Assembly: GCA_016928495.1 (NCBI GenBank)
Contig: JAFGKQ010000011.1
Location: forward strand, 1-8,248
Source: Candidatus Fermentibacterales bacterium
GTDB taxonomy: Bacteria > Fermentibacterota > Fermentibacteria > Fermentibacterales > JAFGKQ01
Length of the DNA: 8,248 nucleotides
Reading direction: 5' to 3'
A program made the translations under genes and the position numbers. A model generated the notes under the pieces. The model ran no database searches, was not told the origin of the DNA, and saw only the letters and a program-made list of their open reading frames with translations. Of this stretch, positions 4,854 to 8,038 are shown in pieces. Each line of letters starts with the position of its first letter. The stretch's first letter is position 1.

Positions 4854-6002
4854 GTGCCCGGTAGTGCCAATGACACGGCCAGGAGCGAGTGCCTTGCGAT
4901 CCTGGCCGGCAGGATCGCCCACGAGCTGGAATCGGTCCTCAACTCGGTTCTCAGCAGTCTGTCTCTCGCCGCCGTCCTCGTCCCCGGCAACGTCCCCTGT
5001 GCCGAGGGGCTTCTCAGGGAGGCCGAGAAGGGTGCGCTGAGAGCCCGCAACCTTACATCCCAGCTCTCTGCCTTCTCGGACACGGGCGAGCCCCGGCTGA
5101 GGCTGTCCTATCTCCGCAAGCTCATAGAGGACTCCAGTCGGTTTTCGCTCATCGGCACGGAGGCCTCCTGTGACTTCAGGCTGCCCCTGGATCTCTGGCC
5201 GGCGAAGGTCGACGCGAAGCAGTTCGCTCTCCTGATAACCAGCCTGCTGATGCACGCCCTCTCCGCCAACGACGACAGGGGCGAGGTCGTCGTCGGGGCC
5301 GAGAACCTCACTCTCGCCGACGGGAACAGCGTAGGGCTCGAGCCCGGCAACTACGTCCGCATCGTTGTCCGCGACAGCGGGGGCGGACTGCCCGAGAAGC
5401 GCCTCGAGGAGGCCTTCGATCCGCTTAGCAGCTCCGGGCATTTCGGCGTTGCGCTGGCCGCCTGCAACATGATCGTCGGCAGACACGGGGGCATGATGGT
5501 GGCCAGGTCGCTACCCGGGCTCGGTTCGGCCTTCAGCGTGTATATCCCGGCCATCCCTGACGGAGTCCCGTCGGGTCAGGAGGCGTACGCTCCGCTGTCG
5601 TCCGGCCGCGTGCTGGTGATGGATGACGACCAGTGGGTGCTGCAGGTGGCCAGGGAGATGCTCTCGCATCTCGGCTACTCCGTCGTCACGACCTGTGATG
5701 GCAGGGAGGCGATAGGGGAGTACTCCCGTCTCTCGGGCTCCGGAGGGCGGTTCGATGCCGTACTGATGGATCTCTGCGTACCCGGAGGGATGGGTGGGAT
5801 AGAGGCTCTGGCCGGCATCCTGGAGGTGGATCCCGAAGCCAGGGTGATCGTCTCGAGCGGGCACTTCAGCCTGCCGGTCATGTGGGACTTCAGGTCCAGA
5901 GGCTTCGCCGCAGCCCTCGCGAAGCCGTACAGCCTCTCGATGCTCGCAGGAGCGCTGTCCGAAGCCACGGGAGCGGGGAGGGAAGAGAGCCCAGTCTCTT
6001 GA
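4854..6002 (+). CDS. Histidine-kinase-like/receiver protein with degenerate ATP-binding domain (probable pseudokinase)
   Basis: This 382-residue protein (start GTG 4854) is cytoplasmic, with no membrane segment. Residues about 11-75 are a HisKA-like dimerisation helix pair with acceptor His23 (IAHELESVL); about 115-232 are HATPase-like; about 251-370 are a receiver domain. It aligns almost without gaps to the core of the kinase downstream (LLREAEK-ALRARNLT-QL, LPxDLWPA, IVGRHGG, FSVYIPAIPDG). The essential N-box Asn is replaced: SLLMHALSA (His134) against NLVINAVQA. The first glycine box DSGGGLP (174-180) is intact. The region from FDP to the second glycine box is two residues shorter and reads HFGVALA against GSGLGLA. 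ATP binding is therefore doubtful, while the receiver is complete: acidic D257-D259, phospho-acceptor D306 (VLMDL), S334/S335 and K357 (AKPY). It has no sensor domain. Possible roles are phosphorelay intermediate, phosphatase, or heterodimer partner of the neighbouring kinase. It leads the rightward operon, 98 bases before the next gene. Confidence 0.88.
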   Translation: MPGSANDTARSECLAILAGRIAHELESVLNSVLSSLSLAAVLVPGNVPCAEGLLREAEKGALRARNLTSQLSAFSDTGEPRLRLSYLRKLIEDSSRFSLIGTEASCDFRLPLDLWPAKVDAKQFALLITSLLMHALSANDDRGEVVVGAENLTLADGNSVGLEPGNYVRIVVRDSGGGLPEKRLEEAFDPLSSSGHFGVALAACNMIVGRHGGMMVARSLPGLGSAFSVYIPAIPDGVPSGQEAYAPLSSGRVLVMDDDQWVLQVAREMLSHLGYSVVTTCDGREAIGEYSRLSGSGGRFDAVLMDLCVPGGMGGIEALAGILEVDPEARVIVSSGHFSLPVMWDFRSRGFAAALAKPYSLSMLAGALSEATGAGREESPVS

Positions 6003-6100: not shown

Positions 6101-8038
6101 GTGGTCTCTCCACCTACCAGAGTCCTTCTCATAGAGAGCTTGCCGGTCACTCCCCTCCCTCACGGAGGGGACGACCCACGAGCCGGCTCCGGCCTGCTCT
6201 TCGATGGCAACAGCGCCTTCCAGGTCGTACGCGTTCCGAGCGTTGACGCGGCGAGGGAGGCGCTCTCCCGTTCCGGGTTCGACGTACTGGTCGCGGACCT
6301 CGACGCTCTCGATGACGGCTCTCCCGGGTCGCTGCTCCCCATCCTCTCATCGCGCACATCTCCGCCCGTTCTCGCCGTAGGCGACGAGCACCATTCCGGA
6401 AGGGCTCTGGACTACCTGCAGTTCGGCGTGCAGGACTTCCTGCTGAAGGGGTCTTTCAGCCCGGTGGTTCTGGAGAGGGCCATCAGGTACTCCATCGAGA
6501 GGGAGAGGCTGCGCAAGCAGCTCGAGCAGCAGTCGCTCGACCTGTCCTCCAGCGAAGGGCGTCTCCGGGCGATCATCGACAACACGACCGATGCCATAGT
6601 GGTCGTCGGCGCGGACGGCTACATAAGGTTCGCCAACGCCCCTGCCTCCGAGATCTTCGGAGTGCCGCTAGAGGTCCTCCTGAGCGGCCGCTTCGAGTAC
6701 GATCTCGCGCCCGGAGCGATCACCGAGCTGGAGAGGCCGGGCCCCGACGGATCCCCGAGGACACTCGAGATGAGGGCGGCCGAGGTGGTCTGGGAGTCGG
6801 AGCGAGGCATGCTCGCCACGCTCAGGGATGTCACCGACAGGAAGCAGTCGGAGCAGGAGCACCGCAGGCTGATGGATCGCATCCAGCAGATGCAGAAGAT
6901 CGAGGCCATCGGTATCCTGGCGGGAGGCATCGCTCACGACTTCAACAACATACTGACTTCAATACTGGGCAGCCTGTCCCTGGCCACCAGCATAGCTCCC
7001 CCGAAGCCGGAGGACCTGAGGAACCTCCTCAGAGAGGCTGAGAAGGCGGCGCTGAGGGCAAGGAACCTGACCGCGCAGCTTCTCACCTTCTCGAGGGGGG
7101 GCGAGCCGGTCAAGAAGGTGAGGTTCCTGCGGAACGTCATCAAGGATGCCTGCCTGTTCTCGATGATGGGGTCGGGCTGCAAGTGCGAGCTCGAGCTGCC
7201 CGTCGATCTCTGGCCCGCCGAGGTGGACGAGAACCAGTTCACGCAGGTCGTCGACAACCTGGTCATCAACGCGGTGCAGGCGATGGCCGATGCCGGCACC
7301 CTGGAAGTGACTGCCGGTAACATCGAGATCGGCGAGGGCGACAGCCTGCAGCTCGAGCCGGGGCCGTACATACGACTCGAAGTGAGGGATGAAGGCCCCG
7401 GCATACCCGAGGAGTATCTCGGCCGCATCTTCGACCCCTATTTCACCACCAAGCAGAACGGCAGCGGGCTGGGCCTCGCGATATCCTACTCCATAATAGG
7501 CCAGCACGGAGGACTGATCGAGGTGGACTCCAGGCTGGGCGAGGGCAGCCGCTTCTCCGTGTACCTTCCCGCGATTCCGGAGGGCCTGCCGAGGACCGAG
7601 GAGAGCGCCGACCCCCCTCGCAGGGGGGTGGGATGGGTACTCGTGATGGACGATGACGAAGGCGTGCTGAGCATCGCCTCCCAGATGCTGGAGCACCTTG
7701 GTTACCGCGTTGCCACCGCGTCGGATGGAGACGAAGCGGTATCGATCTACGCCAGGGAGCGCCGGAGCCCTGATGGCAACCCGTTCTCGGCAGTGATAAT
7801 GGATCTCACGGTGCCGGGCGCGAAGAACGGCGTGGAAGCTCTCGGCGAGCTGAGGCAGATCGATCCCGAAGTAACGGCGATCGTCTCCAGCGGCTACTTC
7901 AACGACCCTGTCATGGCCAACTACAGGGAATACGGCTTCTCCGGCGTGCTCACCAAGCCCTACAGGCTTGCCGAGATCGGAGAGGTGCTCTCAGAGGTGC
8001 TAGGCTCTCCGGGTGGCCCCCCGGGCGAGCCCGAGTAG
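6101..8038 (+). CDS. Hybrid sensor histidine kinase: receiver-like, PAS, HisKA, HATPase, receiver
   Basis: This 645-residue protein is soluble, with no membrane segment. Residues about 7-130 are a receiver-like domain with D66 (VLVADLDAL) and K116 (FLLKG), but the acidic pair is reduced to Glu12 (LLIES) and the switch Thr/Ser position is Gly94. Residues about 131-150 are a helical linker (YSIERERLRKQLEQQ). Residues about 154-248 are a PAS domain (IIDNTTDAIVVVGADGYIRF, ending ATLRDVTDRKQ). HisKA carries acceptor H279 (GGIAHDFNNIL). The HATPase is complete: N-box N386/N390 (NLVINAVQAM), DEGPGIP (430-436), FDPYFTTK (444-451) and GSGLGL (454-459). The C-terminal receiver (about 512-632) has D517-D519, phospho-acceptor D568 (VIMDL), S596/S597 and K619 (TKPY). 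It should autophosphorylate H279 and pass phosphate to D568 or to the receiver of its paralogue. The PAS ligand is unknown. No DNA-binding output is present. A cyclase gene starts 20 bases after the stop, suggesting a common transcript. Confidence 0.95.
   Translation: MVSPPTRVLLIESLPVTPLPHGGDDPRAGSGLLFDGNSAFQVVRVPSVDAAREALSRSGFDVLVADLDALDDGSPGSLLPILSSRTSPPVLAVGDEHHSGRALDYLQFGVQDFLLKGSFSPVVLERAIRYSIERERLRKQLEQQSLDLSSSEGRLRAIIDNTTDAIVVVGADGYIRFANAPASEIFGVPLEVLLSGRFEYDLAPGAITELERPGPDGSPRTLEMRAAEVVWESERGMLATLRDVTDRKQSEQEHRRLMDRIQQMQKIEAIGILAGGIAHDFNNILTSILGSLSLATSIAPPKPEDLRNLLREAEKAALRARNLTAQLLTFSRGGEPVKKVRFLRNVIKDACLFSMMGSGCKCELELPVDLWPAEVDENQFTQVVDNLVINAVQAMADAGTLEVTAGNIEIGEGDSLQLEPGPYIRLEVRDEGPGIPEEYLGRIFDPYFTTKQNGSGLGLAISYSIIGQHGGLIEVDSRLGEGSRFSVYLPAIPEGLPRTEESADPPRRGVGWVLVMDDDEGVLSIASQMLEHLGYRVATASDGDEAVSIYARERRSPDGNPFSAVIMDLTVPGAKNGVEALGELRQIDPEVTAIVSSGYFNDPVMANYREYGFSGVLTKPYRLAEIGEVLSEVLGSPGGPPGEPE

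Follow-up and report, generated by a model that had tools for sequence, protein, structure and literature searches.

A predicted kinase-dead histidine kinase core with a receiver, encoded beside its intact paralogue in a Fermentibacterales genome

Organization of the locus

The window, meaning the whole stretch of 8,248 nucleotides analysed here (contig JAFGKQ010000011.1 of a Candidatus Fermentibacterales bacterium), hosts two kinase-like genes, denominated P1 and P2. Both are on the + strand at a distance of 98 bp, a spacing which suggests that they probably share a transcript.

P1 (4854-6002, + strand) is an ORF of 382 aa free of internal stops. It starts with GTG, and a GGAGG located 6 bases upstream provides a good ribosome site. 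The product is a sensorless histidine-kinase core joined to a receiver, and is predicted to be kinase-dead. Pfam identifies in it HATPase_c (1.1e-11) and Response_reg (6e-14). HisKA is not detected by Pfam, because the domain is too altered. In the AlphaFold2 model (mean pLDDT 85.9) a two-helix DHp, a CA and a REC fold are all recognizable. Model and alignment assign to the DHp domain residues 10-76 (4881-5081, + strand), organized in two long helices. The model helices span residues 4-42 and 48-75, and the His23 codon is found at 4920-4922. The receiver corresponds to residues 251-374 (5604-5975, + strand). Structure searches retrieved kinase and receiver folds; DivL, RetS and CckA are found among many kinases, and function is not distinguishable in this way.

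P2 (6101-8038, + strand) is, according to Pfam, NCBIfam and alignment data, an intact CckA-type hybrid kinase of 645 aa, and the putative partner of P1. It too starts with GTG, with GGAGG 4 bases upstream. The Pfam domain order is a weak receiver-like N-terminus, PAS, HisKA, HATPase_c and receiver. The best NCBIfam model is CckA (3.2e-73), yet the match is below the full-length cut-off of the model. The P2 core has also been modelled, and its lid differs from that of P1 as expected. The N-terminal receiver-like stretch, which precedes the PAS domain (6101-6580, + strand), matches Response_reg below the cut-off (0.0007). Related species have open frames, about 450-480 aa in length, which contain stretches resembling this N-terminus.

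The other genes noted in the window are on the - strand. The one closest to P1 (3162-4622) encodes a tetratricopeptide-repeat protein of 486 aa; it is divergent from P1, and the two starts are about 230 bases apart. The ORF at 812-2692 encodes a glycosyl hydrolase family 18 protein with a Golvesin-C domain, the C-terminal stretch of which resembles a cell-surface sorting domain. The gene at 3-812, broken off by the contig end, features a CHASE2 sensor domain (Pfam 2.5e-31). A partner response regulator is not visible on the 8.2 kb contig.

Sequence changes in P1

P1 and P2 are 47% identical over 367 aa (BLASTP). The two proteins have been aligned for comparison with a reference set of kinase-receiver cores, consisting of 118 non-redundant homologues which come almost entirely from the same order. 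A first-pass annotation of the window had described the alignment of P1 to P2 as gapless, which is wrong, since the P1 lid is shorter by two codons. The same annotation had correctly noticed the loss of both N-box asparagines. In the degenerate N-box (residues 126-135, LLITSLLMHA, 5229-5258) Ser130 replaces N386 of P2, an Asn in 114 of the 118 homologues, and His134 replaces N390, which is Asn in all 118. The Gln found four residues ahead of the first N-box Asn (Gln382 of P2; Q in 107/118) is replaced by Leu126.

The ATP lid, i.e. F-box plus G2 box, has been rewritten. Residues 188-202 of P1 (FDPLSSSGHFGVALA, 5415-5459) correspond to FDPYFTTKQNGSGLGLA in P2. The change from GSGLGL to HFGVAL, and the shortening by two codons, had been pointed out earlier and are both found in the alignment; the L-G-L of the G2 box, present in all 118 homologues, is V-A-L in P1. 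The F-box changes from YFTTK to LSSSG. The loss of five codons combined with the gain of three, which keeps the Ser-Gly of GSG, accounts for the shorter lid equally well.

The H-box (residues 18-27, 4905-4934) reads AGRIAHELES in place of AGGIAHDFNN. The D-F-N-N that follows the acceptor His, conserved in 117-118 of the 118 homologues, is E-L-E-S in P1. Both H-box asparagines, each found in 118/118 homologues, are thus missing, and Ser27 occupies the H+4 position. The H-box and Gln382 changes, and the extent to which the F-box is rewritten, had been overlooked in the earlier list. The substitutions on that list are confirmed, and P1 turns out to be more degenerate than it indicated.

Other landmarks are intact, most of them already pointed out earlier. 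Opposite the acceptor H23 the alignment has H279 in P2 and a His in 117/118 homologues; an acidic H+1 residue follows (H23-E24). The rewritten H-box resembles the general HisKA box (H-E-L), in which His and H+1 acid survive. The G1 box is kept (D174-x-G176-x-G178, 5373-5387), the DxGxG motif being invariant across the 118 homologues and P1. The receiver phospho-site is complete (D257, D258, D306, S335, K357); next to the active-site Ser, a Tyr present in 116/118 homologues is replaced by His337.

Altogether, of the 46 columns that are at least 95% conserved, 13 are altered in P1 and not one in P2. The homologue that ranks next after P1, which belongs to another phylum, departs at eight. The departure of P1 from conserved columns is far beyond chance. 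Neither loss of G2 nor, where the N-box is covered, loss of the N-box Asn was found in the other aligned HATPase stretches of this genome. A sequence error or a compensated frameshift has been considered and, on sequence grounds, rejected: the reading frame is uninterrupted, in-frame changes suffice to explain the lid, and the remaining losses are located far away from it.

Predicted activity

The Asp of the DxGxG motif binds adenine; P1 retains the motif, and some nucleotide binding is therefore conceivable. Contacts with either ATP or the DHp acid are made in WalK by the Asn residues of the N-box, by the Gln preceding them and by the G2 box (PMC5633905). According to the same report, mutation of the Gln disrupts autokinase activity in VicK, and a VicK double Asn to Ala mutant, as cited there, still exhibits observable autokinase activity (PMC5633905). 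For this reason the assignment of P1 as kinase-dead rests on combined loss, not on His134 alone. Since the changes extend to N-box, adjacent Gln, F-box and G2 box alike, the suggestion already made in the first-pass annotation that P1 lacks kinase activity is well supported at the sequence level, and P1 is likely kinase-dead.

In HisKA kinases the H+1 acid is needed for kinase activity, and the H+4 Thr or Asn for receiver dephosphorylation (PMC3510030). With Ser27 replacing the H+4 Asn, P1 is on this basis probably phosphatase-poor or phosphatase-dead.

Origin and constraint

In the tree P1 and P2 are sisters (support 100/97). The branch of P1 is 4.5 times as long as that of P2 (1.4 and 0.31, respectively), and changes are unevenly distributed. 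Strict columns are changed at 1/14 positions in the receiver, 13 being kept, at 7/14 in DHp and at 5/18 in CA. At columns conserved in at least 70% of the sequences, DHp has 12 changes found only in P1 and 0 found only in P2; the corresponding counts for CA are 17 and 1, and for the receiver 6 and 4. The receiver of P1 evolves at the pace of that of P2, and DHp and CA are accelerated. It had been proposed that acceptor and receiver residues were selectively retained, which would argue against decay. The receiver data fit this proposal; the surroundings of the acceptor His do not, DHp being, in terms of strict columns, the most altered domain.

P1 could be a recently non-functional duplicate at an early stage of decay, still free of stops and frameshifts; we consider this rather unlikely. 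The accelerated branch, the substitutions at highly conserved positions in two of the three domains, also around the acceptor His, and the letter composition of P1, flagged at the tree step as unlike the alignment, are all in line with decay. The good ribosome site and the conservation of receiver and DHp helix 2 are not. Nor is the GC content by codon position (0.66/0.49/0.83), which is similar to that of neighbouring genes, the third value being coding-like. In 200 runs simulating neutral drift over the P2 to P1 divergence, a mean of 5.2 stops, and a minimum of one, were introduced, against none in the 382 codons of P1. The absence of stops where about five are simulated points to coding constraint for most of the history of P1, not necessarily today. 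Pseudogene signs are thus mixed: open frame, coding-like GC3 and fewer stops than in neutral simulations on one side, accelerated branch on the other. The P1-P2 pairwise dN/dS (0.39, with dS 1.27) is an average of both branches, too coarse for dating the loss.

Decay would also fit the single occurrence of P1. No P1 orthologue was found in 60 chosen relatives, in 42 genomes of the phylum, or in the GTDB contig collection, the best hits in other genomes being intact kinases of no more than about 41% identity. Nor were orthologues of P2 found in the 42 genomes of the phylum. For the sensor half of P2 no orthologue emerged, the search yielding only partial matches to other proteins, in their PAS or receiver-like portions. 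Among the genomes searched, that of the window is the sole member of its family.

P1 and P2 share 73% identity in DHp helix 2 (residues 51-76). P1 matches P2 at 10 of 14 otherwise variable columns in this tract, and at 34% elsewhere (p 0.005, post hoc). In histidine kinases of this class helix 2 contributes to dimerisation and receiver docking, and its similarity in P1 and P2 therefore fits a partnership. Gene conversion has been considered as a source of the similarity and rejected, because third-position identity in helix 2 (0.40) is no higher than elsewhere.

P1 as a candidate non-catalytic partner of P2

The hypothesis that we favour, and regard as evenly balanced between right and wrong, is that P1 is a non-catalytic hybrid partner of P2, kinase-dead and probably phosphatase-dead, with a mode of action comparable to that of RetS or FasC. 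P1 would derive from a duplicated copy of the DHp-CA-REC core of P2, or of a P2 ancestor, without the sensor part. Changes in N-box, Gln, F-box and G2 box would then have abolished ATP-dependent autophosphorylation, and the H+4 Asn to Ser change probably also receiver-phosphatase activity; P1 would have kept the phospho-acceptor His, the acid next to it, and a receiver with its full set of active-site residues. The DHp of P1 may pair with P2 or dock onto it. Asp306 could take a P2-derived phosphoryl group either directly from His279 of P2, or via trans-phosphorylated His23, and P1 would thereby divert or relay the P2 signal. Heterodimerisation and trans-phosphorylation are plausible in view of the adjacency of the genes, their sister paralogy and the helix 2 similarity, and P1 may carry phosphate. 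The loss in P1 only of residues invariant in the 118 relatives supports a partner role, as do the conserved receiver, the intact frame and the well-folded model. Against it are the surroundings of His23, which are among the most changed regions of P1, the retained DxGxG, the lack of a visible partner response regulator on the contig, and the searches for orthologues, which returned no second case of the degenerate state being maintained.

Alternatively, P1 may titrate P2 as a decoy or inhibitor in an inactive dimer, carrying no phosphate and using its receiver for structural or docking purposes only. The resemblance of the DHp helices 2 suits this hypothesis, and inhibition of GacS autophosphorylation is one of three mechanisms used by RetS (PMC5992135). 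None of the five receiver active-site residues has been lost, though, and a docking-only domain would have no need for them; we regard a decoy as very improbable.

P1 might also act as a histidine phosphotransferase similar to ChpT or Spo0B, moving phosphate from Asp568 of P2 to His23, and from there to another receiver. A ChpT-like relay competes seriously with the partner hypothesis, even if we give it a low probability. Without a His carrier, the terminal receiver of P2 could not pass its signal on to a separate regulator. An Hpt domain is present in 28 of the 42 genomes of the phylum, and none was detected in this one; the assembly is only about 81% complete, and an Hpt domain may therefore be missing from it. 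P2 is CckA-like, and CckA uses the pseudo-kinase ChpT, in which H+4 is also Ser (S26, corresponding to N326 of CckA) (PMC9981736). ChpT lacks a receiver of its own, whereas P1 has a fused one, and in P1 the carrier domain is less conserved than the receiver. Moreover, a Pfam scan up to E 10 gives no match of P1 to the ChpT family (HPTransfase, PF10090).

Returning to the partner hypothesis, an elaboration of it, speculative and unlikely as it stands, is that the two proteins form an obligate asymmetric pair. P2 would provide ATP catalysis and sensing, and the sensorless, kinase- and phosphatase-dead P1 an additional His-Asp relay free of hydrolysis, in replacement of an Hpt protein, none of which was detected in this lineage.

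Comparison with known systems

RetS, ChpT, DivL and FasC are examples of histidine kinases which are kinase-dead, and in which signalling has been rewired through loss of catalysis. P1 is sensorless, and its gene adjoins that of its closest live relative; it could therefore illustrate the origin of a phosphorelay partner by duplication and loss. If P1 is instead decaying, it is an ordinary redundant duplicate. RetS has two receivers and, to our knowledge, is not the immediate neighbour and closest paralogue of GacS. FasC belongs to a kinase class different from that of P1.

P1 features the RetS-type architecture, namely degenerate HATPase, His-bearing DHp and receiver. RetS of Pseudomonas aeruginosa similarly associates a DHp and a degenerate HATPase with receivers; its HATPase lacks conserved G-boxes, it does not autophosphorylate, and it modulates the hybrid kinase GacS, from which it takes phosphoryl groups (PMC5992135). 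Thr428 of RetS is needed for its phosphatase mechanism, whereas P1 has Ser at H+4. RetS includes sensor domains; P1 has none, and a single receiver.

ChpT of Caulobacter and Brucella shares with P1 a DHp, a functionally degenerate CA, a retained His and Ser at H+4, and partners a CckA-type hybrid kinase, as proposed here for P1 with P2 (PMC9981736). Unlike ChpT, P1 carries a receiver, is outside PF10090, and is a close paralogue of an active kinase.

FasC and FasB of Streptococcus pyogenes are encoded, as P1 and P2, by adjacent kinase-like genes. FasC is a proposed pseudokinase which interacts with FasB, and in which the His is required and the kinase domain dispensable (PMC12675982). It differs from P1 for having membrane domains and, in the described architecture, no receiver.

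In Corynebacterium glutamicum, ChrS heterodimerises with its active paralogue HrrS, and a dead copy gains function (PMC9491836). The ChrS pseudokinase is, as P1, a paralogue made kinase-dead via its CA domain, by a frameshift (PMC9491836). That frameshift is laboratory-evolved, and in this differs from P1, which is a natural gene.

Short, apparently sensorless kinase-receiver frames are found also in related species. N-box and G2 box are not lost in those of 375, 384, 455 and 462 aa, the 455-aa frame starting at the edge of its contig. Those of 375 aa (L046:3541-4665) and 384 aa (L047:4957-6108) come from the same order as the window.
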